Assembly (NCBI GenBank): GCA_003725745.1
Contig: RHDP01000001.1
Location: 2,943,501-3,007,500, forward strand
DNA length: 64,000 nt
Source: Streptomyces sp. I6
GTDB taxonomy: Bacteria; Actinomycetota; Actinomycetes; Streptomycetales; Streptomycetaceae
Direction: 5' to 3'
The position numbers were made by a program, and so were the translations under genes. The notes under the pieces are model-generated. The model ran no database searches. It worked only from the letters and a program-made list of their open reading frames with translations, and was not told where the DNA came from. Positions 3,775 to 47,900 of the stretch are shown piece after piece; within the stretch, counting starts at the first letter, position 1; the number at the start of each line of letters is the position of its first letter.

Positions 3775-3990
3775 AGCCGAACCGGCGGGGCCGTCAACCG
3801 GACCGGCGGGGCCTCCAACCGAACGGGCGGGGCCCTCAGCCGGACCGGCGGGGCCTCCAACCGAACAGGCGGGGCCCTCAGCCGGACCGGCGGGGCCTCC
3901 AACCGAACAGGCGGGGCCCTCAGCCGGACCGGCGGGGCCGTCAGCCGGACCGGCTGCGCCCTCAGCCGGACCGGCGGGATCCTCAGTCGA
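3775..3990. repeat. 21-bp GC-rich tandem repeat, about ten copies
   Basis: Direct tandem copies of a 21-base unit of the form ACCGGCGGGGCCNTCANCCGG fill the space between two convergent genes and overlap the last codons of the leftward gene (stop at 3983). Copies alternate between two slightly different versions. The period is a multiple of three, so all frames stay open and give heptapeptide repeats in spurious ORFs, but no start, ribosome site or codon bias supports translation. Confidence 0.85.
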
Positions 3991-6900
3991 ACCAGCGGTC
4001 CCTCGCCAGCTCCTCCGTGCGCGACGGGTCCTCCAGCAGCGCCGCCACCTCGAAGCGGCGGGGCCACTGGCCCGCCGCCCAGGCGAGACCGGCGGCGACG
4101 CCCTCCAGCGTGGCGGCGTGGACGACCCCGTCGGAGCCGCGGCGCCAGTCGAGTTCGACCCCGCCGGCGAGCAGCTCCTCGTGCTCGACGTACGACGCGG
4201 GCGTCGCCGGGCCCAGCAGCGCTTGCACCGACTCCGGTACCGCGTGCTCCTCGCCGTCCGTCGTCACGTCCGCCTCGACCGCCTCGCTGAGCCGCCCCAC
4301 CTGGAACAGCTCGGCCAGATCGGCCGCCCGGTCGGGGGACACCGGCAGCAGCGGGCGACCCGCGGTCAGCGGCAGCAGGTCGGGGGCGTCCGCGACGAGC
4401 GCGTCCGAGGCGTCCACCACCCGCACCTCGCCGTCCACGACCGCGCGCAGCTCGTCCGGGAGGGTGACCTGCTCCGGGTCCAGATCCGCCAGAGCCGTGT
4501 AGAGGCCGTGCAGCTGGGTCGCGGTGACCGGGCGGCCCGGGTCGGCGAGCCGCCCCAGCAGCTCGGCCGCGCCGCCCGGCTCGTCCAGCAGCGCGGCGAC
4601 GGACGTCCGTACGCCGAGGGCGTGCAGCACCTGCTCGTCCTCAAAACCGGTCGCGTCGGCCGAGTCGTACAGGCCCACCAGCAGCGGATCGCCGCCCGAG
4701 GAACGCAGACCCGCGGGGCGGCGGCCGCCCAGCACCGGGTGGCCGCGGAGCCACCAGGCCGTGTACGGCCGGACCGTCTCGGTCGTGCCGTCCGGCAGCA
4801 GCACCCGGACGGGCTGGGTCAGCGCGTCCCGCAGCGGCGGCCTGGCCAGCAGCGCGAGGGCCCGCGGCCACTGGCCGTCGTCCACGAGATCCAGGTCGCG
4901 CACGGCGGCGATCTCCGTCGCGACCGGAGGCACGGGGGTCTCGGGCAGCCGGTCCAGCACGTCCTCGCACCACACGTCGACCGCGTCCAGCAGCCCGGCG
5001 TCGTCCGGCTCGGCGAAGTCCCCCTCGCGGGGCTCCAGTTCGTCCGGATCCAGCACCACGTCCGTGGCGCGGACCAGCGCGAAGTCCGCCAGCACTCCGC
5101 AGGCGGCGAGCGGCTGCTCGCCCCAGCGTCCGGCCAGCTCGGCGTCGACGAGGGCGAGTTCGCCCTCGCGCATCACGGACGCGAAGGGACTTGCGGGCAG
5201 CACCAGCTCACCGGCCGGGGCGAGTTCACCGTCCTCGTCCGGCAGCGCCAGCGCGCCCAGCCACGGCTCGTCGCCCGGCTCCAGTCCCGCGTCCCGGACG
5301 AGGGCGAGGACGATCTCCGCCAGCTCCTCGCTGTCCGGGGCGTCCTCGTCCCACAGCCCGTCGCCGTCCTCCAGCGACGCGGCGACGGCCGCCCGCACCT
5401 GCGGCGTGGTGAGCACCGCGCGCGGTGTCGCGGGCAGCGCGCCCAGCTTCTCCAGCAGCGGATGGGCGGCGTCCTGATGGGCCACCTTCAGCCCGAACCG
5501 GGCCAGTCCTGCCGGGGTCTCGGCCGTCGGCAGCAGGACCCGGCGCGGGCCGATGGTGGTGCGGGGCGCACGGCGCGGACGCGGCTCATCGTCCCCGTCC
5601 CTCTCCCCGTCCCTCCCGCTGTCCCCGTCCCCGTCCCTCCCGCTGTCCCCGTCCCCGTCCCTCCCGCTGTCCCCGTCTCCGTCCCCGGCTCTGTCCCGGC
5701 CCCCTCCCCTGACGTTTCGCCGCCGGCGGCCGCGCCCGTACCGGCGAGCGGCACCGGCAGGCCGGACAGCCGCTCCGGGTCCACACCGGCGAGGCTGTCG
5801 TACAGCCGCCACCACCACGACGGGTCGCGCTCGATCCCGGCCAGCCGGTCGACCGCCTCCGTCAGCGGGACCCTCGCCACCCCCAGGGTCCGCAGCTCCG
5901 CCCGGCGCTCCAGACCGGCCGGCAGCAGGGTCGGGAGCACGTCTGCCAGGACCTCCACGGTCTCGGCGCCGGCGCCCTCCACGATCTCGGCCTCCAGCGG
6001 CCGCAGCGCCACCATGTCCTCCGAGGGGACGGCGGGGGCGAGGAACGCGGTGCGCGGCAGCAGCTCCAGGATCGCCGCGCGCAGCGAACCGTCCAGCTCT
6101 CCCTTGCCCAGCGGCCCGGGGACGAGGTCGATCAGCCCGGGGCCGACCGGCTGCCAGTCGCCGAGCAGTTCGGCGTACGCCTCGGCCGCGCGCCGCACCA
6201 GGAAGTCGGTGAGCGGGCCGGGAGCGGGATGGCGGCGCGCGGTGTCCAGCGGCAGCGAGGCGATCAGCAGCGCGGGCACACCGAGGGGCTCGTCCGTCGG
6301 GGTCGGCGCGTGGACGACCGGCGCGGTCGCCGGGTACAGGGGCATGCCCTCGGTGTCCACCGGGACCGCCCAGGTCACGGTCCAGTGCGGCCGCATCCGC
6401 TCCTCGACCGGCCGGTCCGCGAGCAGGGCGGGTTCGATGGCGCCGTGGTGGCTGACGACCCGCCAGCGGTTCAGCCCGCGGGCGCTGTCCTCGACGTGGA
6501 CGTGGTCGCCGTGCTGCGAGCGGCGCAGCGTCCGGGCGCCCTCCGGGGTCTCCACCACGACCTCGTCGAGACCCGGCAGGGTGAGCAGCAGCGCGTCGTC
6601 GATCCCGGCGAGCAGCCGTCCGACGAGGTCCTCGGCGGTCCCGTCGCGCAGCGGCAGGATCACGACCGTGTCGTACCCGTCGGGCGCGGTCCCCTCGGCG
6701 GGCAGCGGCAGCCTCAGCAGCGGGACATGGCCGTCGCGGCGGCGCAGTTCGTCCCCGAGTCCCGGGCTGGCCTGTGCCGCCTGTGCCGCGAGTTCCCGGG
6801 CCTCGGCCAGCGACCAGCGGACACCGCCGTGCCGGCCGACGACGGCGGGCTCGTCGCTCACGGCCAGTACGGCGGCGAAGCCGACACCGAAACGCCCCAC

Positions 6901-7239
6901 CGCGGTCCGGTCGCCCTCGCGCTTGGCCGACGCCCGCAGCGTCGACAGCGACTCCACACCGGCGGCGTCCAGCGGGGCGCCGGTGTTGGCGGCGACGAGC
7001 GTTCCGCAGTCGAGGGTGAGCCGGAAGCGCCCGGGGACACCGGCGCGGGCGGCGGCGTCGGCGGCGTTCTGGGCCAGCTCGACGATCACACGATCGCGGT
7101 AGCCGCCGAGCGCGAGATCCTCCTCTGCGTTGGCGTCCTCGCGGAAGCGCGCGGGGCTCGCGCCCCAGGCGTCGAGCACCCCGCGCCGCAGCCGCACCGT
7201 CCCGAACGGGTCGGCCCCCTCGGTCGTCCTGACGCTCAC
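3983..7239 (-). pseudogene. Sacsin/Hsp90-like GHKL-ATPase domain protein, frameshifted
   Basis: Large protein of about 1085 residues when the reading frame is restored. The N-terminal part has a GHKL (Bergerat) ATP-binding fold: VELAQNAAD at residues 53-61 (N box) and GRFGVGFAA at 115-123 (G2 box). Actinobacterial homologues are annotated as Hsp90-like or sacsin N-terminal domain proteins of unknown role. The GTG at 7239 is preceded by GGAG and starts the conserved SVRTTEGADPFGT region. The frame changes between about 5560 and 5720, inside a run of C-rich 24-bp repeats; the total length is 2 modulo 3, so one missing base would repair it. The remainder shows continuous coding character up to the stop. 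Either a recent mutation or a base-calling error. Confidence 0.75.
5611..5682 (-). repeat. 24-bp in-frame tandem repeat inside the GHKL-ATPase gene
   Basis: Three copies of CCCTCCCGCTGTCCCCGTCC plus four bases lie at 5611, 5635 and 5659, the last slightly diverged. Because 24 is a multiple of three, copy-number change would keep the frame, so the frameshift seen here must come from a separate base change. On the coding strand the repeat gives a Gly/Thr- or Gly/Asp-rich linker, depending on frame. Confidence 0.8.
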
Positions 7240-7977
7240 GCCTGTCTCCGCTCTCTGACTGTGCTCTTCGGCCGTCTCGGCAGTCGCCGGTACCGGTGCG
7301 GTACGACGGCGGTACCGGTGTGGTACCGGCCGTTGCCGCCGTCCCGGCCGCACGGACGCGGCCCCGCCCCGGAGCCCGAAGGTACCGCGTCGCACACGCC
7401 CCCGCGCGACCGCTCCACCGGGGCTCGCACCGCACACCTGGGAGGCGATGCGGAGGCGTCGGCGATTCCGGTGTCGATGCCCCTCCCGACGCGGTCACTC
7501 CCGAAAGCGGTCCCCCTGATGCGGCACGGCGGGACCGCCCCGATGCCGGGGAGGGGCGGGTGCCCTGACACGAGGCGCGGCTGAAGCCGGCCCCGACGCA
7601 CGGCCGGTCAGGGCCGGGCAGGGCCCGACGGGCTGGACGTGCATGGCGCCGTCACCGTGACCCGTGGTCCGGTTGTCTCCGTCGTCGGCACACACGGCGT
7701 CACGGGCGGCATCAGCAGCACGGACAGCACCGGCGGCACAGGCGTAGCCGGCGTCACCGGCGTCACCGGCGTCACCGGCGGCACGGGCGCCGAGCGCAAC
7801 GGCCGGGGCTCGCCGCAGACCCGGGGCGCCCTGCCGAGGCCGCCGTCCCGCGCGCCGGCCGCTACGTCATCCCGGCTGATCGTGACGTTCCGACCGACCG
7901 GTACCGCGGACCGCAACCCAGCGGTGCCGGCCGTCGCGAGCCGGACGGGAACCCCGCGGGGTCTCCCGGGCGGGCCC
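7240..7977. other. Intergenic region upstream of the GHKL-ATPase gene
   Basis: About 740 bases with no supported gene. It contains clustered GGTACCG motifs at about 7288-7330 and a 9-bp repeat (GGCGTCACC) at about 7749-7780. Open frames here lack ribosome sites and consistent codon bias. The promoter of the leftward ATPase-domain gene should lie in the part next to 7240. Confidence 0.4.
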
Positions 7978-8889
7978 CTACGAGTGCCCCAGGTCCTCGT
8001 CCTGCGCGGTCGTCTCCACATGGTCCGGGACCGAGCCGCTGTCGGGCGCCGGCCGGAGCGGGAACTCGTCCGCGCGCATCGAGTCGTGCACCGGCGGTGC
8101 CGGCCGCGGCGGCTTCGGCATGACCGCCGCCTCGGAGTGCCCGCCGCACCCGTACGACAGGGACACGACCCGCCCGTCCGCCGGGGAGAACTCGTTCGCG
8201 CACACCCCGAACGCCTGCTTGAGCGACCCCGACAGCGGCATCAGGAAGCCGCAGGACTGGCAGGACGCCGGCGCGGACTGCGCCATCGGCGTCTTCGCCC
8301 CGAAGGAGTCCTCCCACCGGTCCGCGGCGACGTGCAGCCCGTAGCGGGAGAGGACCCGCGCGCGGCGCATGCCCATTTCCTCCGCCACGGAGGCGATCCC
8401 ACCGCGCGAGGGGGCGCGGGTCACGATCTCCGCGTCCTCGGCGTCGACCCGGTCGGCCATCTCCTCGGAGACCGCCGAGTTCGGCGGCGGCGCCTCCTCA
8501 CCCGAGTAGCCGGGCTCGAGCCGCAGATCCTCGGCGTCCGTGGGGAGCAGGTCGCCGGGGCCGAGGTCACCCGGCCGCAGCCGGTCGCTCCACGGAACCC
8601 ACTCGGGCGCGAGCAGGGCGTCCGGTCCGGGCAGGAGAACGGCCTCGTCGACCGTGACGTTCTTCGCACGGGAGGCGCGGGCGACGGTGACGGCCCAGCG
8701 CCAGCCCCGGTAGCCGGCCTCCCGGCACTCGAAGAAGTGGGTCACGACCCGGTCGCCCTCGGACACGAGCGAGACGTGCTCACCCACCACGCCCGGCGCG
8801 GCCGCCTCGTCCGCGGCCGTCCTGGCCAGGTCTACCGCCTCGGCGCACAGGCGGTCGGGGGTACGGCTTCGCGTCGTCGCAGCACTCAC
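7978..8889 (-). CDS. DUF3027 family protein
   Basis: A 303-residue soluble protein matching the actinobacterial DUF3027 family, function unknown. It opens with a helical region and a block rich in aromatic residues (HFFECREAGYRGWRWAVTVA), and carries a CQSCGFLMPL segment near residue 215 followed by FGVCANEFSPADG and SYGCGGHSEA, a Cys pattern compatible with a metal-binding knuckle (inference). The GTG at 8889 is supported by AGGAGA on the minus strand about 12 bases upstream. It diverges from the MFS transporter. The C-terminal 40 residues are low-complexity. Confidence 0.85.
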   Translation of the reverse strand: MSAATTRSRTPDRLCAEAVDLARTAADEAAAPGVVGEHVSLVSEGDRVVTHFFECREAGYRGWRWAVTVARASRAKNVTVDEAVLLPGPDALLAPEWVPWSDRLRPGDLGPGDLLPTDAEDLRLEPGYSGEEAPPPNSAVSEEMADRVDAEDAEIVTRAPSRGGIASVAEEMGMRRARVLSRYGLHVAADRWEDSFGAKTPMAQSAPASCQSCGFLMPLSGSLKQAFGVCANEFSPADGRVVSLSYGCGGHSEAAVMPKPPRPAPPVHDSMRADEFPLRPAPDSGSVPDHVETTAQDEDLGHS

Positions 8890-9170
8890 AGGTCTCGCTT
8901 CTCTCCTACGCCGTCTCACGGGTGCGCCTGGCCGATCCGCGATGTACGAGCGGCGGGCGGAGCGGACCAGGGGGCCGCATCGACGTCCGCGCCCGGGCAC
9001 ACTGTCTCGGGCACACCTACCGTCACCCATTCTGCGGGATGGCGAAAAGGCGTGCGGCCGGGAACTACCGCCGGTGGCGCGCTACGCACGCTACCCCCTC
9101 CGTGGCGCGCCGCCCACCTGCCCGTCCGAATCCCGGTTCGGGTCGGGGTCCGGTAGGGCACTATGACGAC

Positions 9171-10538
9171 GTGACAGCCGCGAGGTCGTCCGGCGCTCCC
9201 GGGCCGCTGAGCAGGGCGTGCCGAGCCGTCGGCCGCGCCCTGCACCTGCCGTTCACCCGAACGGCCAGGGGCATCCGCCGGGCCACCCACGCGCACGGCG
9301 CGGGCGAGTCCGGGTTGGGCAGGCTGATCGAACTGCACGCGGTCAACGGGGCCGGCGATGTCATGATCACCGTGGCGCTGGCCTCGACGGTCTTCTTCTC
9401 CGTGCCCACCGACGAGGCCCGCGGGCGGGTCGCGCTCTACCTGGCCATCACCATGGCGCCGTTCACCCTGCTCGCCCCGGTGATCGGCCCGCTGCTGGAC
9501 CACATCCCGCACGGCCGCCGCGCGGCGATGGCGGGCACGATGACGGCCCGGGCGGTGCTGGCGCTGACCATGTCGGGAGCCGTCGCCACCGGCGGCATCG
9601 AGCTGTACCCGGCGGCGCTCGGCGTACTGGTGTGCTCGAAGGCGTACGGGGTGATCCGGAGCGCCGTCGTGCCGCGCCTGCTGCCGCCGGGATTCGCCCT
9701 GGTGAAGGCGAACTCACGGGTGACCCTCGCCGGGTTGCTGGCCACGGGCATCGCGGCGCCGATCGGCGTCGGACTCCAGCAGATCGGCCCCGCCTGGCCG
9801 CTGTACGGCGCGTGCGCGATCTTCGCCCTGGGCACGTTCCTCTCCCTGAGCATGCCGCACAAGGTCGACTCGGCGAAGGGCGAGCGCAAGGCGCACATGC
9901 TCACGTACGGCGAGCGGAAGCCCAGTCTGCGGACCGTCGGCCCGTCGGTGCTGCACGGACTGCAGGCGAACGTGGCGCACCGGATGCTGTCGGGCTTCCT
10001 GATCTTCTTCCTGGCGTTCCTGCTGCGCGTACATCCGCTGGCCGGGCAGAGCGCGGCCGCGTCGCTGATCATGGTCGGCGTCGCCGCCGGGATCGGGAAC
10101 GCCTGCGGCACGGCGATCGGGGCGTGGGTGCGCAACCGCCCACCGGAACTGATCGTCGCCACCGGGCTGATGCTGGTGCTGACCGTGGCGTCGTTCACGG
10201 CGGTGTTCCTCAGTCCGCTGATGGTGGCGGTGCTGGGCGCGGTGGCCGGGCTGTCCCAGGCGCTGTCGAAGCTGTCGCTGGACGCGATGATCCAGCGGGA
10301 CGTGCCGGAGTCGGTGCGGACGTCGGCCTTCGCCCGCTCGGAGACGCTGCTGCAGATGTCGTGGGTGGTCGGCGGGGCGATCGGGATCTCGCTGCCGCTG
10401 AACGGCGTGGTGGGCCTGACCGTGGCGGCCGGCATCCTGGCCGCGGGCGCCGTGCTGGCGCTGCGCGGGCTTCTGACGGCGTCCCGGCGCGGCACGGTCG
10501 CGCCGAAGAAGGTCACGCTGGCGTCCCGGGTGCGGTGA
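9171..10538 (+). CDS. MFS transporter
   Basis: A 455-residue major facilitator superfamily protein with about twelve hydrophobic segments, beginning after a basic N-terminal stretch of about 65 residues. The loop following the second hydrophobic stretch (GPLLDHIPHGRRAAMAG) is a version of the conserved MFS loop between helices 2 and 3. Substrate is not predictable. The GTG at 9171 starts the homologous region; a four-codon ATG-ACG-ACG-TGA reading frame at 9163-9174 overlaps this start, which could couple translation or be chance. A lipoprotein gene follows after 158 bases in the same direction. Confidence 0.8.
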   Translation: MTAARSSGAPGPLSRACRAVGRALHLPFTRTARGIRRATHAHGAGESGLGRLIELHAVNGAGDVMITVALASTVFFSVPTDEARGRVALYLAITMAPFTLLAPVIGPLLDHIPHGRRAAMAGTMTARAVLALTMSGAVATGGIELYPAALGVLVCSKAYGVIRSAVVPRLLPPGFALVKANSRVTLAGLLATGIAAPIGVGLQQIGPAWPLYGACAIFALGTFLSLSMPHKVDSAKGERKAHMLTYGERKPSLRTVGPSVLHGLQANVAHRMLSGFLIFFLAFLLRVHPLAGQSAAASLIMVGVAAGIGNACGTAIGAWVRNRPPELIVATGLMLVLTVASFTAVFLSPLMVAVLGAVAGLSQALSKLSLDAMIQRDVPESVRTSAFARSETLLQMSWVVGGAIGISLPLNGVVGLTVAAGILAAGAVLALRGLLTASRRGTVAPKKVTLASRVR

Positions 10539-13696: not shown

Positions 13697-13854
13697 GTCT
13701 GTCCTCGTCCTCGTACTCGTCGGGAATTGCGAAAAACCGTCTGGATAGCACTGCAGCGGGCCGCTCGACCCGCCACCACACAAGGCTAATGGTCCGGGGG
13801 CCGCTGACAAGACGTTCCCGGTGGTTCCCACGCGCTGGGAACTACCCTGGTCGA

Positions 13855-16258: not shown

Positions 16259-16334
16259 GGTGCCCCTCCACAGCGCGCCCGTCCCGGCGCCCGATCCTGA
16301 CGTTAGCGCCTGGGCAGGGGCTAACGTGGGGCGG

Positions 16335-19324
16335 ATGGGGACCGGTGAGCTCGATCGGGAGGCGCACGTGCCCGCAGGAACGTCCGCAGGGACACCGGCA
16401 GGACAGCCGGCACGTGAAGCTGAGGGCGCCGCGGCCGCTGCGCCGGGGCGTCCGCACGGCGGCACGGACGCGCAGGCGCCGGAGACCGCCGATGACAGCA
16501 CGGACGGCACGGACGACACGGACCGCACGGACCGCACGGACCGCACGGACGGCACAGGCACCCACGAGCCCGCACGCACCCGGGACAGCACGGACACTCG
16601 CGCCGCCGCCGTCACGCACACTCCCGCGGAGACGCCTGCGGAGACGCCTTCGCACACTCCCGCGGAGACGCCCGGGGGCATGCCCACCGGCTCCCGCACC
16701 GCCACGGACGCAGCGCCGCGCACCCCCGGGCGCACCGCCGTACCACCCCGTACCCTCGCCGAGGCGCTGCGCGGCCGCGGCGACCGGGGTCTGGCCGCGC
16801 TGCTCCGCGCCCGCCCGGATCTGCTGAACCCCGTACCGAACGATCTGACGCAGCTCGCCACCCGCGCCGGCACCAGGGCGTCCGTCGTCAGGGCGCTGGA
16901 ACGGCTCGACCGGTTCGCCCAGCAGACCGCCCAGGCCCTGGCCGTTGCCGTGGAGCCCACCTCGTACGGGACACTGCTCGCGCTGCTGAGCGGCGACGGC
17001 GACGGCGGCGATGACGGTGGCGGCGACCCCGCTGTCGAGGCCGCACTCCCGCGCGCGCTCGGCCTGCTGCGCGAGCAGGCCCTGGTCTGGGGCGGCGACG
17101 ACCGGCTGCGGCTGGTGCGGACCGCACGCGAACTGCTCGCCCCGTCCCCGCAGCACCCGTCCCCCACCGGCCTCGGCCCGACGGTCGCGGAGGCCACCTC
17201 GGGGATGTCACCGGGCAGACTGCAGGAGATCCTCGCCGCGGCGGGGCTGCCGACGACCCACGACCCGGTGTCGGCCGTGGAGTCGCTGACCGCGCTGTTC
17301 ACCGACCGGGAGCGGATGGCGGCGCTGCTCGACTCGGCTCCGGCGGAGGCCCTCGCGGTGCTGGACCGGCTCGTGTGGGGGCCGCCGTACGGGACGGTGG
17401 CTCCGTCGGGCGGTTCCTCGGGCGCGGCGGACCAGACGCCGGTGCAGTGGCTGCGGGACCGGGGCCTGCTGCTGCCCTCCTCACCGCGTACGGTCGTGCT
17501 GCCGCGCGAGGTGGCGCTGCATCTGCGCGGTGGGCGGGTGCACCGAGAGCCGGAGCCGGTGGCGCCGGAGATCCGGATCGCGGCGGAACACCGTCCGCAG
17601 ATGGTCGACAGCACGGCCGCGGGTCAGGCGCACACCGCGCTCGCCACCGTCGAGGAACTGCTGAAGGGCTGGCAGACGGGCGGGCCGGCGGTGCTGAGGG
17701 CGGGCGGCCTGAGCGTCCGGGACCTCAGGAGGACCGCGGCCGCGCTCGACGTCTCCGAGCAGATCGCCGCCTTCTGGCTGGAACTGGCCTACGCGGCCGG
17801 ACTGCTGGCCTCCGACGGGGAGGCCGATGAGCGGTTCGCGCCGACGCCCGCGTACGACGAGTGGCTCGAGCTGCCCGCCGCCTCGCGGTGGACGGCCCTC
17901 ACGACCGCGTGGCTCACCGCCACCCGGACGCCGGGACTGGTCGGCGACCAGGACCCCAAGGGCCGGACCGTCGCGGCGCTCGGCCCCGACCTGGACCGGG
18001 GCGCCGCCCCGGAGGTGCGTCACCGCGTGCTGGCCCTGCTGGCCGAGCTGCCCGGGGGCGCGGCCCCGGACCCCGGCACGGTCCTCGCCCGGCTCCGCTG
18101 GGAGCGCCCGGTCCGCACCCCGGCGTCCGCTCCCGGCACTCCCGAGCCCCCCGATCTGCGCTCCCGCATCGCCACCTGGACCCTGACCGAGGCGGAGCTG
18201 CTGGGACTGACCGGGCGCGGGGCACTCTCCACCGCGGCCCGCACCCTCCTGTCCGGCCCGGCCCTTCCCGAGACACCCGGCCCGGCCCCGCGCGAGACAC
18301 CCGGCCCGGCCCCGCGCGAGGCGGCCGTCCCCGCCGTTCCCCGGACAGCCGACCCGGCCCCGCGCGACCAGGCCGCGCTCGCCGCCCGGGCCGCGCTCGC
18401 CGCCGGGGTGATCGCGCCGCTGCTGCCGGAACCGCTCGACCACGTCCTCCTCCAGGCCGATCTCACCGCCGTCGCACCGGGCCCGCTGGAACGCCCGCTG
18501 GCGGAGGCGCTCGGCGTCCTTGCGGACGTGGAATCGAAGGGTGGCGCGACGGTCTACCGGTTTACCCCGGCGTCCGTACGGCGCGCCCTGGACGCCGGGC
18601 AGACCGCGGCGGACCTGCACGCCTTCCTCGCCAAGCACAGCCGCACCCCGGTGCCCCAGCCGCTCAGCTACCTCATCGACGATGTGGCCCGCAAGCACGG
18701 CCACCTGCGCATCGGCGCCACCTCCGCCTACGTCCGCTGCGACGACGACGCGCTGCTCGACGAGATCCTGGCCGACCGGCGCTCGCAGGGCCTGGGATGC
18801 GCCGGCTGGCCCCGACCGTGCTGGCCGCGCAGGCGGGCCCCGCCGCGCTGCTCGAAGGACTGCGGTCCATGGGGTACGCACCGGCCGCGGAGTCCGCCGA
18901 GGGGGATGTGCTGGTCACCCGCGCCGACTCCCGCCGCACCCCGCACCGCACCCCGCCGGCTCCCGTTCCGGACGGGCCGCCGGTACCGGACGACACCCTG
19001 CTCGCCGCCGCGGTGAGGGCGATCCGGGCGGGCGACCTGGCCGCAACGGCCGTACGCAAGCCCGCGGCGCGCCCCGGCACCGGTGAACTGCCCCGGACCA
19101 GCACGGCCGAGACCCTCGCGACCGTGCAGGCGGCCGCGCTCACCGGCTCCGCCATCTGGATCGGGTACGTCAACGCCGCGGGGGCCGCGAGCCAGCGGGT
19201 CATCGCACCGGTCCGCGTCGAGGGCGGGTTCGTCACCGCGTACGACCACACCGCCGACGAGGTGCGCACCTACCCCCTGCACCGGATCACCGGTGCCGCC
19301 GAGCTGGCGGACGACCCGGCCTGA
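16335..19324 (+). pseudogene. Helicase-associated (WYL-type C-terminal) DNA-binding protein, frameshifted
   Basis: About 996 residues when the frame is restored. The conserved body (TLAEALRGRGDRGLAALLRA through PLSYLIDDVARKHGHLRIG) matches the Streptomyces helicase-associated family that accompanies the XPB-type helicase, here 2.3 kb downstream. The C-terminal piece IWIGYVNAAGAASQRVI to the end looks like a WYL-type ligand domain. The N-terminal 120 residues are low-complexity with TDRTDRTDRTDGTG repeats from a 9-bp tandem. At about 18795 the frame changes: LADRRSQGLG is followed, one base off, by MRRLAPTVLAAQAG. The total length is 2 modulo 3, fitting loss of a single base after CTGGG. Otherwise the coding sequence is intact. 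ATG 16335 is a reasonable start. Confidence 0.75.
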
Positions 19325-20021: not shown

Positions 20022-21235
20022 TTAGACGGTGACCCCCAGGAACTCAGCCAGCTTGCGCAGTCCCGGCGGGCGCGACGGCCCGTTCCACAGGTCGGTGACG
20101 ATCGCCACGGCCAAGGTGTGGTGACGCACCCACCCCGGGGCCACCTGCCGCAGCCTCTCCAAAGCCCGCACAGCCCCGGCAGCATCCCCTACGTCGGTAT
20201 GAGCACGAGCTACGTCCAGGAGCAGCCACGTCCGCCACGAGGGCGGGGTGTCCTTGCTCAGCCTTATACCCTTGGCCAGCGTCAACGCTTCCTCGGGCCG
20301 CTCATGCTGGACCGCGAGGCGCACTCGTTCGATACGCACCGACGACCGGCTGAACACCGAAACCAGCTTTCCGTCAGCGGGGGCGGGAGCGTCGCCAGAC
20401 GACCGGCTGCCTTTTCGGCCGTCACCATCATGTCGTTGGCGGTCTCGTAGTCGTCGCTGCGGGCATACGACGTGGCCGCAGACATCAGCAAGCCTCCCCA
20501 CACGCGTACTCCCTCGGACGTATCCGCGTGTTCCCGCTCCACCCCGTCCGCAGCGTGCACGGCGAGATTCCGGGCGTCGTCCAAGCGGGCTTGCCTCTGG
20601 TAGGCCCAGGCGACGGAGTTCGAGACCATCGGGGCGAGCAACGGGTCCGAAGAATCTCCGGCGGCGGCGAAAGCACGCTCCAGCGCGGACAGAGCGAGAT
20701 CGGTCTTGCCGAGCCGGATCGCAAGGTGCCCGCCGAGTTGCAGCGCCTTGCCGAGCGCCGCTTGACCGGCTGCCCGTTGCTCGGGGCTGCCCGCCCCGGC
20801 GAGTAGGCGCGCGTCAGCGACAATGCCCGGCAGTACGTCCATGAGACGGCCGAACTCCGCTGCGTGGTACAGGGTCCATCCTTCGGAGAGTTCGGCCCGG
20901 AGAACGGGCAGCGACAGCCGTTCCACGCCCGCCGGCTCAACGGGCGGAGCGAACGACGGCGGCATGATCGCCCGCCGGACTGCCACGAGTTTCGGCGGAT
21001 CGGCCTCACCGCTTGAGGGGACGCCGGGAGGATCGCCCAGAAGGGCCGTCAGCTCCACGCCGAGCCCCTTGGCCAGTGAGTGGAGTGTGGGGAGGCGGGC
21101 GCTGTGCTTCCGGTGCTGTTCCAGCTTCCGGATCACGTCCACGGAGACGCCGGAGCGCTCGGACAGTCCCTCCTGTGTGAGATCCGCCAGCCCGCGCAGT
21201 CTGGCCATGCGGTCGCCCAGGTGCTCGGTAGCCAT
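20022..21235 (-). pseudogene. XRE-family regulator with TPR-like C-terminal domain, frameshifted
   Basis: About 404 residues if one lost base is restored. Residues 4-60 form a helix-turn-helix (LADLTQEGLSERSGVSVDVI then KLEQHRKHSARLPTLHSLAK), and the remainder is alanine-rich and helical, with TPR-like repeats such as GKTDLALSALERAFAAAGD and QHERPEEALTLAKGIR. The frame switches between about 20376 and 20420, next to a run of five G; total length is 2 modulo 3. The DNA-binding half is intact, so a truncated regulator could still be made if the shift is real. Two small coupled genes follow in the same direction. Confidence 0.75.
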
Positions 21236-24124: not shown

Positions 24125-24201
24125 GTGCTGCCTCCCGGACGGAAACCGGGTGCGCTGTCATGTCCTACTTCTCCACCACCAACGTACCTCGGAGGCAGCA
24201 C
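24125..24201 (+). promoter_or_regulatory. Inverted repeat able to mask the helD ribosome-binding site
   Basis: GTGCTGCCTCC at 24125-24135 is the exact complement of GGAGGCAGCAC at 24191-24201. The second arm contains the GGAGG Shine-Dalgarno sequence of helD and ends one base before the GTG start at 24203. If both arms are in the same RNA, an 11-bp stem closing a 55-base loop would hide the ribosome site. The transcription start is unknown; the upstream GGGGCGGACTGCCCC (24039-24053) is a further inverted repeat in the control region. Confidence 0.45.
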
Positions 24202-32880: not shown

Positions 32881-33806
32881 ATGACCTCCGCCCCTGGACC
32901 GGCCGAACTGCGCGCGCAGCTGGAGAACCTCACGACCGAGGCGTTCCGCCCCGAGCTGGCCGGTATCGACCGGCTCCCGACCGCCGAGATCGCCCGCATC
33001 ATGAACGGCGAGGACCGGACCGTCCCCGGCGCCGTGGCCGCACAGCTCACGGCCATCGCCACCGCGATCGACGCGATCGCCGAACGCATGGCCCGCGGGG
33101 GCGGCTGGTCTACGCGGGCGCGGGCACGGCGGGCCGCCTCGGCGTCCTGGACGCGAGCGAGTGCCCGCCGACGTTCAACACCGGCCCCGACGAGGTCGTC
33201 GGCCTGATCGCGGGCGGTGCTCCGGCGATGGTCGAGGCCGTCGAGGGCGCGGAGGACTCCAGGGAGCTGGCCGCCGCCGACCTGGACGGTCTCGGCCTGA
33301 CGGCGCTCGACAGCGTCGTCGGCATCTCCGCCTCGGGCCGAACCCCTTATGCGATCGGCGCCGTCGAGCACGCCCGTGCGGCCGGCGCCCTCACCGTCGG
33401 CCTCTCCTGCAACGCCGGCAGCGCACTGGCCGCGGCCGCCCAGCACGGCATCGAGGTGGTCGTCGGCCCCGAACTCCTCACCGGATCGACCCGGTTGAAG
33501 GCGGGTACGGCCCAGAAGCTGGTCCTCAACATGATCTCGACCATCACGATGATCCGCCTGGGCAAGACGTACGGAAACCTGATGGTCGACGTACGCGCCT
33601 CGAACGAGAAGCTCCGCGCCCGGTCCCACCGGATCGTGTCGCTGGCGACCGGCGCCCCGGACGCGGCCGTCGACAGCTCCCTGACGGCGGCCGACGGCGA
33701 GGTGAAGACCGCGATCCTGATGCTCCTCGCCGACGTCGACGCCGCCACGGCAGCGGGCCTCCTCAAGCGTGCCGGCGGCCACCTCCGCGAGGCACTCCGC
33801 CTCTGA
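32881..33806 (+). pseudogene. murQ: N-acetylmuramic acid 6-phosphate etherase (MurQ), frameshifted
   Basis: MurQ cleaves the lactyl ether of MurNAc-6-P to give GlcNAc-6-P and D-lactate during peptidoglycan recycling. The N-terminal part ([20 protein letters not shown], then [16 protein letters not shown]) and the SIS core ([56 protein letters not shown]) are unmistakable. At about 33102 the frame shifts by one base: GCCCGCGGGGGCGGCTGGTC should read with one more C to give [20 protein letters not shown]. The span is 2 modulo 3, exactly one base short of a 308-residue enzyme. The ATG at 32881 is preceded by GGGAGAG. If the shift is real, MurNAc-6-P recycling through this gene is lost. Confidence 0.85.
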
Positions 33807-37778: not shown

Positions 37779-39262
37779 CTTGGGTTCTAGCAGTCCTCGC
37801 AACACTCATGATCAATGGGAGTTGCGAGGACCGTGGGCGGTAAGAGGCTTGATCCAGCGTTGAAGAAGCATTTCCTTGAGCGGCTGGACGCCGTGGGAAG
37901 TGTGTCTCCCGTGGCCCGTGAGCTGGGGCTGAACCTGAACACTGCGTTCACCCTGGCTCGCAAGGCCGGCATGGCTACGGGGCACCTGGGGCACCCGCGG
38001 CGCGAGGAGTACGAGAAGCTGCGGGGCCAGGGTGTTTCCCGCCGGGAGGCCGCCCAGCGGGCGGGGGTGAATCCGCGCACGGCCAAGGACTGGGACAATG
38101 GCGTCCGGAGGACCGGGAACTCGCGGGTCTACCCCGACGGTCGACGTGTGAACTACACGACGGGAACCGTCACGATGTCCGGTGTGATCATGAAGGCACC
38201 GGTGAGGCCGGTGAGTCTCAAGTCCCTTGAGAAGAAGCTGCACCCGCGATTCCTGACGCTCTCGGAGCGGGAGCAGATACGCGACCTCCGTGCCGCCGGC
38301 CAGTCGCTGCGGGCCATCGGGCGGGCCCTGGGGCGCCCGGCCAGCACCATCTCGCGTGAGCTGCGGAACAACACGGGGCCTGCCGGCTACCACCCCTACG
38401 CGGCCCACAGGGTCGCTGCCGCGCGCAGGCCCCGGCCGAAGGGCCGCAAGCTGGTGGGCGAGAGCCCGTCGCGCAACTTCGTCCAGGACGGCCTGCGCCG
38501 ACGGTGGTCTCCGGAACAGATCTGCCACGCTCTGACCAAGAGCCATCCCGACGACCAAGACATGCGGGTGAGCGTGGAGACGATCTATCAGGCGCTGTAT
38601 TTGCAGGCCAGAGGCGGTCTGAAGCGGGAAGTCCAGGCGGCCGTCCGCACCGGTCGCACGCGCCGCAAGCCGCGACGTGACCCGAGCCGCCGGACCTCTC
38701 GGTTCAACGACCCGATGGTGATGATCAGCAGCCGTCCCGCAGAGGTCGAGGACAGGGCGGTGCCCGGCCACTGGGAAGGCGATCTCATCGTCGGCGCACA
38801 CGGCCGGTCCGCCATCGCGACTCTGGTCGAGCGGACCACCCGCTACACCATGCTGGTCCACCTGCCGGGCAGCTCTCACGACGCCGCAGCCGTCCGGGAC
38901 GGCCTGGTCCGCACCGTCCAGACCCTGCCCCCGCACCTGCGGGGCTCGCTCACCTGGGACCAGGGCTGCGAGATGGCACGGCACAAGCAGTTCACCATGG
39001 CGACCGGGATGCCGGTCTACTTCTGCGATCCCGCCTCGCCCTGGCAGCGCGGCTCGAATGAAAATACCAACGGTCTGCTGCGCCAGTACTTCCCAAAGGG
39101 CACCGACCTGAGCCTGCACAGCCCCGAGGACCTCGAACACGTCGCTCAGGAACTCAACGGCCGCCCACGCAAGACGCTCGACTGGGATACGCCAGCCGAG
39201 CGTCTACGTGATCTACTCACCACCTGAGCCAGGCAGTGTTGCAACGACCGCTAGAACTGAAG
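37779..39262 (+). mobile_element. IS30-family insertion sequence, copy 1 (1484 bp)
   Basis: Ends are CTTGGGTTCTAGCAGTCCTC and, on the complementary strand at the other end, CTTCAGTTCTAGCGGTCGTT; both continue to GCAACACT, giving 28-bp imperfect terminal inverted repeats with 23 matches. The element is flanked by a direct repeat CCG (37776-37778 and 39263-39265), the expected small target duplication. One transposase gene fills it. Boundaries were confirmed by comparing with the second copy at 46418-47900. It truncates the gene to its right. Confidence 0.9.
37815..39227 (+). CDS. IS30-family transposase, intact
   Basis: A 470-residue DDE transposase. N-terminal helix-turn-helix domains (PVARELGLNLNTAFTLARKA; SREAAQRAGVNPRTAKDW-like region; REQIRDLRAAGQSLRAIGRA with the IS30 TISRELRNN motif) precede the catalytic core: D323 in [11 protein letters not shown]382 in LTWDQGCEM and E416 in [16 protein letters not shown], giving the DD(33)E spacing of the family. 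Apart from one Ser/Leu change it is the same protein as in copy 2, but that copy is frameshifted. Confidence 0.92.
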   Translation: MGVARTVGGKRLDPALKKHFLERLDAVGSVSPVARELGLNLNTAFTLARKAGMATGHLGHPRREEYEKLRGQGVSRREAAQRAGVNPRTAKDWDNGVRRTGNSRVYPDGRRVNYTTGTVTMSGVIMKAPVRPVSLKSLEKKLHPRFLTLSEREQIRDLRAAGQSLRAIGRALGRPASTISRELRNNTGPAGYHPYAAHRVAAARRPRPKGRKLVGESPSRNFVQDGLRRRWSPEQICHALTKSHPDDQDMRVSVETIYQALYLQARGGLKREVQAAVRTGRTRRKPRRDPSRRTSRFNDPMVMISSRPAEVEDRAVPGHWEGDLIVGAHGRSAIATLVERTTRYTMLVHLPGSSHDAAAVRDGLVRTVQTLPPHLRGSLTWDQGCEMARHKQFTMATGMPVYFCDPASPWQRGSNENTNGLLRQYFPKGTDLSLHSPEDLEHVAQELNGRPRKTLDWDTPAERLRDLLTT

Positions 39263-39572
39263 CCGGCGGCCGTGGTTGCACAGACGGCCCCCTCACGCCC
39301 CGCCACGCGCCCGATGCGCCCGCCCAGAGAGTCGATCAGGTACTCGCCCTTCCCGCCCGCATCCAGCCGCCTGCCCCGCGGCGCGCCGCGGCGAGACCAC
39401 GCGCGGTGCCCAGCTTGTTGCGCCCGGGATAGACCAGGGGATACGCCCCCGAGCCGGGCGTGAGCGACACGGATTCCACACGAAGCGCCGGCAAGGGCAC
39501 CACGGTCGAGTCGGGCGCGCCCCCCAGCTGCGGCACGACCTCATCGCAGCACACAACCGCTCCTTCGGACAT
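39263..39572 (-). pseudogene. Hypothetical protein truncated by the IS30 element
   Basis: From ATG 39572 the minus strand reads MSEGAVVCCDEVVPQLGG, then VESVSLTPGSGAYPLVYPGR and NKLGTARGLAAARRG, and one base out of frame continues DAGGKGEYLIDSLGGRIGRV up to the IS30 right end. Third positions are G/C-rich in both parts, so this was one coding region, carrying a one-base deletion at about 39380 and cut off by the IS. It diverges from the XRE gene at 39695. I do not recognise the family. Confidence 0.55.
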
Positions 39573-39694
39573 GGTGGAACCACCAGGCAACCCCACTCTC
39601 GGTATGGGTGTTCTCTACACAGCGTGGCCATGGAGGGCTAGCCTGACCGGAGTCGAAGGCCCGACAACCCCACTTGTTCGACCTGGAGTTGACT

Positions 39695-40900: not shown

Positions 40901-40974
40901 GCTGACGGACTCTTGAGCTACTCCACGACGGGGCCCGGGGGCTTGAGCCTCGGGCTCCGAGCGCCGTCAACAAG

Positions 40975-41017
40975 GAATGTTGAATCCTCCCCTCCCTGAG
41001 GGGAGGGGGTTCGTGGC
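40975..41017 (-). repeat. Hairpin right end of a TnpB-type (IS200/IS605-like) element
   Basis: GAATCCTCCCCTCCCTGAGG then GGAGGGGGTTC forms a stem-loop directly downstream of the tnpB remnant stop. This hairpin-plus-tnpB arrangement is the usual right end of Streptomyces TnpB-carrying elements; in active ones the same region yields the 3' part of the guide (omega) RNA. Whether any RNA is made here is unknown. Confidence 0.5.
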
Positions 41018-41405
41018 TCAGGCCGCCTCTGGGAGCAGCGTTCCGGGAGGTCTTACGCCCTCAGCACCAGCCGGGTTGAGACCGGCCCGGACCAGCATCA
41101 CGCGTGCGGAGTTCTTGTCCCGGGGGACACGGCTCCGCACGCGGTGCAGGTGTAGGTACGTTCCGGGAGAGGACGTGCATGCTTGGCTCTCGTCATGCAG
41201 TGCGCGCAGTCCATGGTGGTGTGCGCGGGATGTACGAGGCGGATGTCCCGTGCGTGCTTGCGGCCCATCTCGATCAGGGCCGTCTTCGTGGCGCCGATCG
41301 CCGCGTCAGCGGCCTTGCGGGCCATGGTGGTGCGGCTGAGGAACTTCGGCCGGAAGTCCTCGACGGCGATCGAGTCGTGGTCGCGGACCAGGGGCCGCAG
41401 CCGAA
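41018..41405 (-). pseudogene. C-terminal remnant of a TnpB RNA-guided nuclease gene
   Basis: Only the last quarter of TnpB is left: IAVEDFRPKFLSRTTMARKA (RuvC-II region with its Glu), then a zinc ribbon DCAHC ... YTCTACGAVSP, then, one base out of frame, RDKNSARVMLVRAGLNPAG, which carries the RuvC-III Asp. The frame break is at the GGGGG run near 41121, fitting loss of one base. RuvC-I and the REC/wedge domains are missing, so the protein cannot cut DNA. Upstream sequence is not recognisably TnpB. Confidence 0.75.
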
Positions 41406-41621
41406 TGCACCGCCGCACGCGGGCTCCGGCCGGATCGCGCGGGCGTGCGTGAGCCCGTGACCGGACTGCGGTGTCGACGCCGAGGCCGCGGACACGGGCC
41501 GGGTCGGGCCGCCCCACCCCTCCGAACGGGCGATTTCGTTTCCCACCGCGCAAGCGCCATCACCGGTCAGAATCGGACTCTCCCGGGTACGCCGTGCGGC
41601 ATTGCGGTGAGATGTCCGGAT

Positions 41622-41635
41622 ACCGCTGCAGCGGT
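41622..41635. promoter_or_regulatory. 14-bp perfect palindrome upstream of the PAS-PP2C gene
   Basis: ACCGCTGCAGCGGT is a perfect palindrome 36 bases before the ATG at 41671, a good position for a repressor site or for part of the 5' untranslated region. No known operator class is matched. Confidence 0.35.
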
Positions 41636-41670
41636 CACGGCAAGGGGCAGAATCCGTCCGGGAGGCAAGC

Positions 41671-43275
41671 ATGAAAGGCATCATCACGGCGGTCTCATCG
41701 GAGTCCGATCCAGATACCGGCACCGCCAGGGCCTGCCGCTGCCGGACGAGCCCCCGCCCGGGGGCTCCCGCGGGCTCCGCCGAGGAGCGGTTCCGGGGAC
41801 TGCTGGAGGCGGCGCCGGACGCCATGGTCATCGTCGACGACGGCGGAACCATTCGCCTCGTCAACGCCCAGACGGAAGCCCTGTTCGGCTACCGGCGCGA
41901 GGAACTCCTCGGCCACCCCGTCGAGATCCTCGTCCCCGGCCGCTTCCGCGCCCACCACGCGGCACACCGCGACGGCTACACCCACAACGGCCAGGTCCGC
42001 CCCATGGGCGCCGGGCTCGAACTGCACGGACTCCGCAAGGACGGCACCGAGTTCCCCGTCGAGATCAGCCTCAGCCCCCTCGAAACCACCGACGGACTCC
42101 TCGTCTCCGCCGCCGTACGCGACGTCAGCGAACGCAAGGCCGCCGAGGAGCGGTTCCAGGCCCTGTACGAGCAGCAGCGGCACGTCGCGCTGACCCTTCA
42201 GCGCAGTCTGATGGGCACCCCGCCGGCCGTGCCCGGACTGGAGACCGCCAGCCGCTATCTGCCCGCCACCCAGGGCGCGGGGGTCGGCGGCGACTGGTTC
42301 GACCTCGTACCGCTGGGCGCCGGTCGGGTCGGCATCCTCATCGGTGACGTGATGGGCCGCGGCCTGGAGGCTGCCGCCATCATGGGGCAGCTGCGGTCCG
42401 CGGCCCACGCCCTCGCCAAGACCGGTATGCGGCCAAGTGAGTTGATGCACGCACTCGACTCGATCGTCGCCGAACTCGACGGACCGGACCAGCTGGTGAC
42501 CTGCTGCTACCTGGTGGTGGCTCCGGACGCGGGCGAGGTGACCGTCTGCTCGGCCGGGCATCTGCCGGCTCTCGTCGCGGAACCCGGCGAGGGTGTACGG
42601 TCCCTGGAGGCGCCGGTCAGCGTGCCCCTGGGGGTGGGGGACCATCCGCACCAGGAGGCGACGGTGGCCATCGCCCCGGGGTCGAGTCTGGTCCTCTTCA
42701 CCGACGGCCTGATAGAGACACCGGCGGGAGACATCGAGGAGCAGCTCGACGCGCTCATCGACGCACTCGACCTCGCGTTCGCCTCGGCGCACGACCTCGA
42801 GACGGTGGTGGACGACGTGCTGGAGTCGGTCCTGCCCGCCACCGAGCACCACCACGACGATGTGACGCTGCTCCTGGCCCAGTTGCCGGCGGCCCCGCTG
42901 GCCACGGCGACGACGGTACTGCCGGCCGCCCCGGCGTCGGTGTCCCGTGCGCGGGCGTTCCTCGCCGAGACCCTGGCCGCCTGGGACTGCGCCCAGGTCG
43001 CCGACGACGCCGGGCTGCTGGTGTCCGAGCTGGTCACCAACGCCGTCCGGCACGGGCAGGGCCCGGTGCGCCTCCAGGTGCGGCGCAACAGCACCGAACT
43101 CACCGTCGAGGTGAGCGACCACAGCCACCATCCGCCGCGGATCCGGCCGGCGGGCGCCGACGACGAGTCGGGGCGGGGCCTGATCCTCGTCGAGTCACTG
43201 GCGGGCGGCTGGGGCGTGCGGCCGGCGGACGACGGCAAGACGACGTGGTTCACGCTGCGTCTGGAGCCGGTCTGA
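41671..43275 (+). CDS. PAS - PP2C (SpoIIE) phosphatase - HATPase signalling protein
   Basis: A 534-residue multidomain protein: PAS sensor at about 35-150 (EERFRGLLEAAPDAMVIVDD), SpoIIE/PP2C-type phosphatase at about 170-395 with GVGGDWFDLVPL and LVLFTDGLIETP (metal-binding Asp residues retained), and an RsbW-like ATP-binding kinase domain at about 410-530 with LVSELVTNAVRHG and DESGRGLILVESLAGGWG. Such proteins act on anti-sigma-factor antagonists in Streptomyces stress and development switches. Both the kinase and phosphatase halves look complete, so it could run a full partner switch alone. A good ribosome site (GGGAGG) precedes ATG 41671. It shares a terminator with convergent groEL. Confidence 0.88.
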   Translation: MKGIITAVSSESDPDTGTARACRCRTSPRPGAPAGSAEERFRGLLEAAPDAMVIVDDGGTIRLVNAQTEALFGYRREELLGHPVEILVPGRFRAHHAAHRDGYTHNGQVRPMGAGLELHGLRKDGTEFPVEISLSPLETTDGLLVSAAVRDVSERKAAEERFQALYEQQRHVALTLQRSLMGTPPAVPGLETASRYLPATQGAGVGGDWFDLVPLGAGRVGILIGDVMGRGLEAAAIMGQLRSAAHALAKTGMRPSELMHALDSIVAELDGPDQLVTCCYLVVAPDAGEVTVCSAGHLPALVAEPGEGVRSLEAPVSVPLGVGDHPHQEATVAIAPGSSLVLFTDGLIETPAGDIEEQLDALIDALDLAFASAHDLETVVDDVLESVLPATEHHHDDVTLLLAQLPAAPLATATTVLPAAPASVSRARAFLAETLAAWDCAQVADDAGLLVSELVTNAVRHGQGPVRLQVRRNSTELTVEVSDHSHHPPRIRPAGADDESGRGLILVESLAGGWGVRPADDGKTTWFTLRLEPV

Positions 43276-43290
43276 GGACTCCCGGGCAAC

Positions 43291-43359
43291 CGGACCCGGC
43301 CCGTACGCACACCCTGAGGCCGGGTCCCACGCCCCGGACCCGGCCCGTACGCACACCCT
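43291..43359. repeat. 25-bp direct repeat downstream of the PP2C gene
   Basis: CGGACCCGGCCCGTACGCAC plus ACCCT occurs at 43291-43315 and 43335-43359, between the stop codon and the shared terminator. Confidence 0.75.
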
Positions 43360-43396
43360 CGGGACGCTCCCGCGCACCCGGACGGAAGCACAAGGG

Positions 43397-43437
43397 CCGA
43401 GGGCGGCACCCCCTGGGAGTGGGGGTGCCGCCCTCGG
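43397..43437. terminator. Bidirectional terminator hairpin between PP2C gene and groEL
   Basis: A perfect 17-bp stem (CCGAGGGCGGCACCCCC at 43397-43413, complement at 43421-43437) with a 7-base loop. It lies 31 bases after the groEL stop (43468, minus strand) and 122 bases after the phosphatase stop, so it can serve both convergent genes. Confidence 0.85.
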
Positions 43438-43467
43438 TTCAGGACGGTCGATCAACCTCAGGGTCGA

Positions 43468-45798
<2,331 letters not shown>

Positions 45799-45809
45799 TC
45801 AGTCGGCGC

Positions 45810-46013
45810 TCAGCCGGCTACGCGGACCATGTCCGCCTGCGGCCCCTTCTGGCCCTGCGAGATCTCGAACTCGACTCGCTGCCCCTCCTCCAGGGTGCGG
45901 TACCCGTCCATCTGGATCGCGCTGTAGTGGACGAAAACATCCGCACCACCGTCGACCGCGATGAAGCCATACCCCTTCTCCGCGTTGAACCACTTGACGG
46001 TGCCCTGAGCCAT
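45810..46013 (-). CDS. CspA-family cold-shock protein
   Basis: A 67-residue single-domain cold-shock protein (OB fold) with RNP1 [12 protein letters not shown] and RNP2 DVFVHYSAI, the normal length of Streptomyces CspA-like proteins. It binds single-stranded nucleic acid and acts as an RNA chaperone by family. The ATG at 46013 follows GGGGAG. A promoter about 140 bases upstream would give a long 5' untranslated region, as usual for csp mRNAs. The gene lies just downstream of the thrC-moaD unit in the ancestral order; the IS30 element now separates them. Confidence 0.93.
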
Positions 46014-46417
46014 GCCTAACTCCCCTATTACTGGCCCTTGCACAGGACCGCACTTCGCGGACCCGGGTCAGACCTCACCCAGTGGTTTCCCTGTGCCCGG
46101 AGGGGCATGGGGACGACCCCATGGGCGTGCGCCGGAACGCGTCGACCGCGGCTGAATGTATCTGTCCAACTGCCGTCTGCAACAGGTCAATCGGACGAGA
46201 ATTCCGGGCAGGACCGAAAGGACGATTCAGGGGAAATGCGAGCATTCTCGGGCAAGTCGGGCCGGACAAAGCGCACTTACTGCGCATAATGCTCGAATAC
46301 TTTGGCTGTTTCTCGTCGTGCACGAAGGCGTTCTCATATGCGCCTGGCACACGCGGCGGAGGGGGCTTCCCCAACTCTATCGCGCTCAACCATGCAGAAA
46401 CGCCCCCTCCGCAGAGC
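46014..46417. other. Upstream region of csp, up to the IS30 element
   Basis: About 400 bases with lower GC than the rest of the window (46150-46340), including the candidate csp promoter. No gene is evident. CGGAGGGGGC near 46357 is complementary to GCCCCCTCCG at 46402-46411; the latter is also the left half of the interrupted terminator. Confidence 0.5.
46155..46182 (-). promoter_or_regulatory. Candidate promoter of the cold-shock gene
   Basis: On the minus strand TTGCAG (complement of 46177-46182) and TACATT (complement of 46155-46160) are 16 bases apart in an AT-rich island. Transcription would start near 46148, leaving about 135 bases of untranslated leader. Weak to moderate match to the housekeeping sigma factor consensus. 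Confidence 0.35.
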
Positions 46418-47900
46418 CTTCAGTTCTAGCGGTCGTTGCAACACTGCCTGGCTCAGGTGGTGAGTAGATCACGTAGACGCTCGGCTGGCGTATCCCAGTC
46501 GAGCGTCTTGCGTGGGCGGCCGTTGAGTTCCTGAGCGACGTGTTCGAGGTCCTCGGGGCTGTGCAGGCTCAGGTCGGTGCCCTTTGGGAAGTACTGGCGC
46601 AGCAGACCGTTGGTATTTTCATTCGAGCCGCGCTGCCAGGGCGAGGCGGGATCGCAGAAGTAGACCGGCATCCCGGTCGCCATGGTGAACTGCTTGTGCC
46701 GTGCCATCTCGCAGCCCTGGTCCCAGGTGAGCGAGCCCCGCAGGTGCGGGGCAGGGTCTGGACGGTGCGGACCAGGCCGTCCCGGACGGCTGCGGCGTCG
46801 TGAGAGCTGCCCGGCAGGTGGACCAGCATGGTGTAGCGGGTGGTCCGCTCGACCAGAGTCGCGATGGCGGACCGGCCGTGTGCGCCGACGATGAGATCGC
46901 CTTCCCAGTGGCCGGGCACCGCCCTGTCCTCGACCTCTGCGGGACGGCTGCTGATCATCACCATCGGGTCGTTGAACCGAGAGGTCCGGCGGCTCGGGTC
47001 ACGTCGCGGCTTGCGGCGCGTGCGACCGGTGCGGACGGCCGCCTGGACTTCCCGCTTCAGACCGCCTCTGGCCTGCAAATACAGCGCCTGATAGATCGTC
47101 TCCACGCTCACCCGCATGTCTTGGTCGTCGGGATGGCTCTTGGTCAGAGCGTGGCAGATCTGTTCCGGAGACCACCGTCGGCGCAGGCCGTCCTGGACGA
47201 AGTTGCGCAACGGGCTCTCGCCCACCAGCTTGCGGCCCTTCGGCCGGGGCCTGCGCGCGGCAGCGACCCTGTGGGCCGCGTAGGGGTGGTAGCCGGCAGG
47301 CCCCGTGTTGTTCCGCAGCTCACGCGAGATGGTGCTGGCCGGGCGCCCCAGGGCCCGCCCGATGGCCCGCAGCGACTGGCCGGCGGCACGGAGGTCGCGT
47401 ATCTGCTCCCGCTCCGAGAGCGTCAGGAATCGCGGGTGCAGCTTCTTCTCAAGGGACTTGAGACTCACCGGCCTCACCGGTGCCTTCATGATCACACCGG
47501 ACATCGTGACGGTTCCCGTCGTGTAGTTCACACGTCGACCGTCGGGGTAGACCCGCGAGTTCCCGGTCCTCCGGACGCCATTGTCCCAGTCCTTGGCCGT
47601 GCGCGGATTCACCCCCGCCCGCTGGGCGGCCTCCCGGCGGGAAACACCCTGGCCCCGCAGCTTCTCGTACTCCTCGCGCCGCGGGTGCCCCAGGTGCCCC
47701 GTAGCCATGCCGGCCTTGCGAGCCAGGGTGAACGCAGTGTTCAGGTTCAGCCCCAGCTCACGGGCCACGGGAGACACACTTCCCACGGCGTCCAGCCGCT
47801 CAAGGAAATGCTTCTTCAACGCTGGATCAAGCCTCTTACCGCCCACGGTCCTCGCAACTCCCATTGATCATGAGTGTTGCGAGGACTGCTAGAACCCAAG
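46418..47900 (-). mobile_element. IS30-family insertion sequence, copy 2 (1483 bp, opposite orientation)
   Basis: Same element as at 37779-39262 but inverted and one base shorter. The ends are identical to those of copy 1, and a direct repeat AGC flanks it (46415-46417 and 47901-47903), so it arrived by its own transposition. It sits in the loop of a terminator hairpin between csp and the moaD-like gene. Sequence differences seen from copy 1 are one C in a C-run and one Ser-to-Leu change, which points to very recent transposition. Confidence 0.92.
46453..47864 (-). pseudogene. IS30-family transposase, frameshifted copy
   Basis: Identical to the intact transposase at 37815-39227 up to residue about 372 ([10 protein letters not shown]), except for SPLRNF in place of SPSRNF. 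There the run of five C in copy 1 (CCCTGCCCCCGCACC) is four here, and the original frame is left; the correct C-terminal part from [17 protein letters not shown] to the stop continues in another frame. The first catalytic Asp is kept, the second Asp and the Glu are lost if the deletion is real. Confidence 0.88.

Follow-up and report, generated by a model that had tools for sequence, protein, structure and literature searches.

The window considered here is a stretch of 64 kb on contig C1 of the assembly of Streptomyces sp. I6 (G000; 7.05 Mb, 2 contigs, completeness given as 87.42%). Six of its genes change reading frame: a GHKL-ATPase-like gene, a helicase-associated gene, an XRE-TPR regulator gene, a murQ-like gene, a tnpB remnant and the transposase gene of an insertion sequence (IS) of IS30-like type (Table 1). 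Across much of the window, the reading frame stands out clearly in the base composition of the three codon positions and, therefore, frame changes are easily visible in it. For locating them, the open frames of relatives were compared with the unaltered sequence of the window, and a break was recorded where a protein matched in two frames. Breaks with a net change of 2 modulo 3, which is equal to one lost base, form what we call the minus-one class. An earlier interpretation of this DNA (the sequence-only reading) had listed seven single-base frameshifts. Five of them are clean, namely those of the helicase-associated, XRE-TPR and murQ genes, the tnpB remnant and IS30-like copy 2. In the GHKL gene the frame change was recovered and the lost base was not isolated, and the seventh site, at about 39380, had to be dropped.

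Table 1. Features discussed in the text; positions are those of the window, except where an assembly and a contig are named.
Feature	Position	Strand	Remarks
Window	G000:C1:2943501-3007500		64 kb
GHKL-ATPase-like gene (name from the sequence-only reading)	3983..7437	-	frame change within 5584-5746, in G/C-rich tandem repeat
Helicase-associated gene (Helicase_C_3)	16260..19324	+	minus-one at 18794/18797, no run of at least 4
XRE-TPR regulator gene	20022..21235	-	minus-one at about 20378-20387, beside G5
murQ-like gene (SIS domain)	32881..33806	+	minus-one at 33099-33102, beside G5
IS30-like copy 1	37786..39255 (approximate ends)	+	transposase open, 470 amino acids
"IS-truncated gene" of the sequence-only reading	39255..39640 (approximate ends)	-	no break; G042 has the same two small open frames
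tnpB remnant (C-terminal part)	40980..41514 (approximate ends)	-	minus-one at about 41122/41125, G5 on the plus strand
IS30-like copy 2	46425..47894 (approximate ends)	-	relative to copy 1, one substitution and a C run short by one base
IS30-like copy 3	G000:C1:3136945-3138424

Frame breaks in the window

The five broken genes with known ends measure 3455, 3065, 1214, 926 and 1412 bases, and all these lengths are 2 modulo 3 when the start codons are assumed, as the sequence-only reading had calculated. Its placement of the breaks beside runs of C or G also stands for the XRE-TPR, murQ and tnpB sites, for IS30-like copy 2 (G4 on the plus strand at the site) and for the C runs of the GHKL gene; the helicase-associated site is an exception. 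In the XRE-TPR gene, 34 of 36 homologues cross frames, all by 2 modulo 3 (26 at -1, 7 at +8 and 1 at +32), and the remaining two are short open frames whose matches stop before the break. The homologue of Streptomyces pacificus CWH03 is a single open frame, with 98% identity on one side of the break and 99% on the other. Thirty of the 36 related loci carry the name Streptomyces. The murQ-like gene is crossed at -1 by all six relatives, and the DNA of G042, the closest relative sampled, is longer by one base. G042 is also longer by one base at the break of the helicase-associated gene, where four relatives cross frames: r3, r6 and r7 by exactly -1, and r9, which matches in overlapping pieces, by -28, also 2 modulo 3. 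For the tnpB remnant, the change is -1 in the four plasmid-borne TnpB homologues used, which were chosen among 10 listed entries of the 26 plasmid records that matched. The remnant lacks the N-terminal part and gives a weak match to the Cas12f1-like TNB domain, below the cut-off.

The IS30-like element is present in several copies, and it was used as an internal multi-copy control because no 16S ribosomal RNA match was returned for the Streptomyces sp. I6 assembly when the ribosomal RNA operons were tried for that purpose. The copies were aligned over 1469 columns. Relative to copy 1, copy 2 has a single substitution and lacks one base of a C5, in agreement with the difference in a C run already noticed from the sequence. 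Copy 3 departs from copy 1 over the same length by the lack of one base, in another run, a C4. Copy 1 holds 11 G/C runs of length 4 and 2 of length 5. Two independent shortfalls, almost without substitutions, are the pattern expected of under-calling. The three near-identical copies lie inside approximately 160 kb, with no other full-length match in Streptomyces sp. I6; this clustering suggests recent local spread.

The GHKL gene is a more complicated case. Its linker contains a tandem repeat rich in G/C, whose unit is 24 bp at 5597-5685 and 48 bp at 5597-5708, and the repeat stretch includes nine C4 and one C5. The homologues r6 (open frame of 1448 amino acids) and r9 (1068 amino acids) match in two frames and are 173 bp shorter there, whereas G042 (1428 amino acids), which also matches in two frames, is about 107 bp shorter at the repeat; both differences are 2 modulo 3. 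The frame change itself is real, and a lost base is its likely cause, although repeat turnover prevents a single lost base from being isolated. The N-terminal part has a weak match to the Sacsin domain, below the cut-off. Other strong tandem arrays in the window are found at 51886-52169 (60-bp unit with a 20-bp subunit, 4.7 copies) and at 62990-63105 (40-bp unit, 2.9 copies, 98% match).

The site at about 39380 was ruled out as a frameshift, since two adjacent open frames had been misread and the same arrangement occurs in G042, where one small open frame ends and another lies in a second frame; G038 gives the same picture, more weakly. The DNA alignment with G042 contains no frame-changing gap between 39292 and 39546. 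At 39546 the window has one base fewer than G042, with no G/C run of at least 4, and this position may fall at the start of a small gene. Position 13732, in an A run near the start of another small gene and likewise with no G/C run of at least 4, was considered as a break and rejected: it has one base fewer than G042, yet an open frame of G006 matches across it in one frame. The crossing at 24180/24188 and others seen against G042 at gene borders or in antisense frames were not counted as breaks either.

Breaks across the assembly

The scan for frame breaks was extended to 0.86 of the 7.05 Mb of the assembly. Proteins called in three relatives were used as queries against a 400 kb core region of Streptomyces sp. 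I6, and those of G006 additionally covered 464 kb ending in the window. Only best matches with at least 55% identity and covering at least half of the protein were accepted, and crossings had to lie within 30 residues and 30 bases. The relatives' proteins gave 92 frame crossings in 656 kb of aligned coding DNA (30/213, 27/164, 12/71 and 23/208 kb), a count in which some sites are repeated, as the same core region was seen by three reference genomes. Two controls were performed with the same procedure. Relatives compared with one another gave 10 crossings in 711 kb (4/187, 2/90, 1/183, 0/75, 2/94 and 1/82 kb), and proteins of Streptomyces sp. I6 compared with the relatives gave 5 crossings in 561 kb (2/205, 3/161 and 0/195 kb). 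The break rate is about tenfold above that between relatives, more than chance. The core region and the window-side region break alike. With the G006 proteins alone, 41 exact -1 events were found in 421 kb, distributed over 37 genes, which makes 0.97 per 10 kb. At the scan rate about five breaks would be expected in a window of 64 kb, and six are supported.

The direction of the changes is almost as uniform as the sequence-only reading had proposed for the window, 90 of the 92 crossings falling in the minus-one class. An earlier and looser scan, which the stricter one replaced, pointed in the same direction, with 17 of 28 and 9 of 14 events in Streptomyces sp. I6 being exactly -1. In total, 72 exact -1 events (25, 22, 9 and 16 in the respective comparisons) were placed on the DNA and merged into 44 distinct sites. 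A G/C run of at least 4 lies within 4 bp at 36 of these, whereas among 20,000 coding positions drawn at random in each of the two regions the share with such a neighbour is 11.1% and 13.2%; the excess was assessed with the binomial distribution. The original placement favoured long runs where positions tied, and it was redone with ties resolved to the first position, to the last and to the least favourable one. All three versions again gave 36 of 44; with the distance narrowed to 2 bp the count was 35 or 36 of 44, versus 8-9% expected.

The genes affected include some that a cell should not be able to lose. Of the 37 genes that carry an exact -1 event relative to G006, eight were picked for looking essential and named through NCBIfam on the G006 orthologues: rpoB, rplC for ribosomal protein L3, eno, trpS, sucD, glmU, mfd and purH. 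rpoB and eno are indispensable for cell life. An independent profile search finds rpoB with two breaks and in three frames, with open frames of 549, 445 and 701 amino acids; the identity on the two sides of one break is 98% and 97%. In 19 of 20 relatives the gene is in one frame of 1173-1235 amino acids, and in G001 it is fragmentary. By the same kind of search eno is split in two frames here and has a full-length match in 19 of 20 relatives (none in G008), and trpS is split here with a full-length match in 20 of 20. These profile searches found no intact copy of rpoB, eno or trpS in the Streptomyces sp. I6 assembly. A second tryptophanyl-transfer RNA synthetase match, C-terminal only, is located apart from the split trpS, at G000:C1:3847110-3847496, in an open frame of 1848 amino acids.

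Some relatives deserve a comment. The core region of G005 (L021-L040), a complete genome, has some minus-one crossings too, 4 in 187 kb against G006 proteins, and these are perhaps the same fault at low level. G090, G087 and G010, of the same genus, consist of few contigs with low stated completeness (94%, 78% and 93%), and the GHKL gene of G090 likewise matches piecewise in two frames. These three genomes may share the assembly fault.

Origin of the breaks

We think that the breaks are, almost certainly, errors of sequencing or assembly caused by systematic under-calling of G/C homopolymers and not biology, because they are one-directional, widespread and run-associated, affect essential genes as well, and make near-identical IS copies disagree. 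This is the explanation that the sequence-only reading had put forward, and the parts of the assembly examined bear it out. The consensus would probably derive from long reads without effective short-read polishing, the platform being our inference. G/C runs of about 5 or 6 bases would be reported one base short at a small fraction of sites, and each shortfall inside a gene would shift the frame by minus one, so that an intact gene looks broken. Raw reads would then be expected to support the longer runs, the direction being deduced here from relatives and repeated copies.

Several observations weigh against this explanation. The few events between relatives lean to minus-one too (7 of 10), and 8 of the 44 sites, together with that of the helicase-associated gene, lack any G/C run of at least 4 nearby. 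When all one-base gaps in whole-DNA alignments are counted, coding and non-coding DNA pooled, the side of Streptomyces sp. I6 exceeds the other one slightly or practically not at all (44 vs 38 with G005, 24 vs 14 with G010, 41 vs 40 with G042), such counts being noisy between species and too balanced for a decision. Moreover, the deficit of long G/C runs with respect to relatives is mild: runs of 5 amount to 173 and 198 per 100 kb of called coding sequence here, and to 193, 234 and 210 in the relatives. Homopolymer spectra alone were discarded for deciding the question, as the signal is too weak and the genomes differ in ways that confound it. Finally, natural decay does happen to genes such as the tnpB remnant and those of the IS copies. 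On the other side, the one-base gaps that face a C run of at least 4 in the other genome lean clearly to Streptomyces sp. I6 (7 vs 1 with G005, 2 vs 0 with G010).

Real mutations, due to relaxed selection or to raised slippage in the lineage and leaving true pseudogenes, would account for breaks at runs, as slippage produces them, and for the fact that two of the six supported genes belong to mobile elements. We consider this highly unlikely as a general explanation. Genuine pseudogenes would be confined to dispensable genes, and here rpoB, eno and trpS are split, with no intact copy found in the assembly by the profile searches. Besides, slippage should also add bases, and just 2 of the 92 events fall in the other class; the near-identical IS copies differ by a single substitution beside two shortfalls. 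The reserve of the sequence-only reading, that some cases could be real decay, is worth keeping in two places, the tnpB remnant and the repeat of the GHKL gene, where decay may have taken place. A mixed situation, in which the C runs of the GHKL minisatellite would work as a natural slippage switch and its frame change would be real phase variation, the other breaks being errors, is in our opinion very doubtful.

Programmed or tolerated frameshifting, with ribosomes or RNA polymerase slipping at the runs and restoring the product, would agree with the position of the breaks at G/C runs and with the high conservation of the downstream parts, as around one of the rpoB breaks. It is hard to reconcile with the single open frame of rpoB in 19 of 20 relatives, with the lack of relationship among the named affected genes and with near-identical IS copies being short at different places; we give it almost no credit. 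The chance that the comparison itself creates frame crossings in high-GC DNA is equally negligible. Some crossings do arise where an antisense open frame or the border of a gene is involved, the site at about 39380 being of such a kind, but the same procedure yields a tenth of the rate on relatives, and the split of rpoB, eno and trpS is found by the independent profile search.

Under-calling of G/C runs would have practical consequences for users of this genome. Extrapolation of 0.97 events per 10 kb to 7.05 Mb, with approximately 85% coding assumed, gives about 580 breaks in genes of this species representative. Such breaks would inflate pseudogene counts and could mislead pathway reconstructions, and they fit the completeness of 87.42% stated for an assembly in only 2 contigs. 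The six window genes should not be called pseudogenes on the basis of a frame break in this assembly. The result is a quality warning, and it adds nothing new on the biology of the organism.

Comparison with known cases

The case belongs to a kind of error documented for PacBio assemblies of Streptomyces (PMC4832174, PMC6923854). For S. albus SM254, 262-fold PacBio coverage and successive Quiver passes left 205 indels, nearly all in G/C homopolymers (PMC4832174). The likeness is close, as that genome is also a high-GC Streptomyces of about 7 Mb with indels in G/C homopolymers. The difference is that those indels were fixed with Illumina reads before deposition, whereas here they persist, and the rate in the coding DNA of Streptomyces sp. 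I6, about one clean event per 10 kb, looks higher. In three other Streptomyces genomes, the PacBio-only and the Illumina-corrected sequences had 70, 295 and 335 differences (PMC6923854); they were judged with reads, whereas in our case the direction comes from relatives and repeated copies. For the reference-based tool Kastor, which looks for gene-fragmenting errors, false deletions are reported to predominate in the main example, the majority after runs of 4-5 (PMC12007338). It follows the same logic and addresses the same class of error as found here, with the difference that A/T runs dominate its example of 59% GC, whereas in Streptomyces sp. I6 the G/C runs are the ones affected (PMC12007338).

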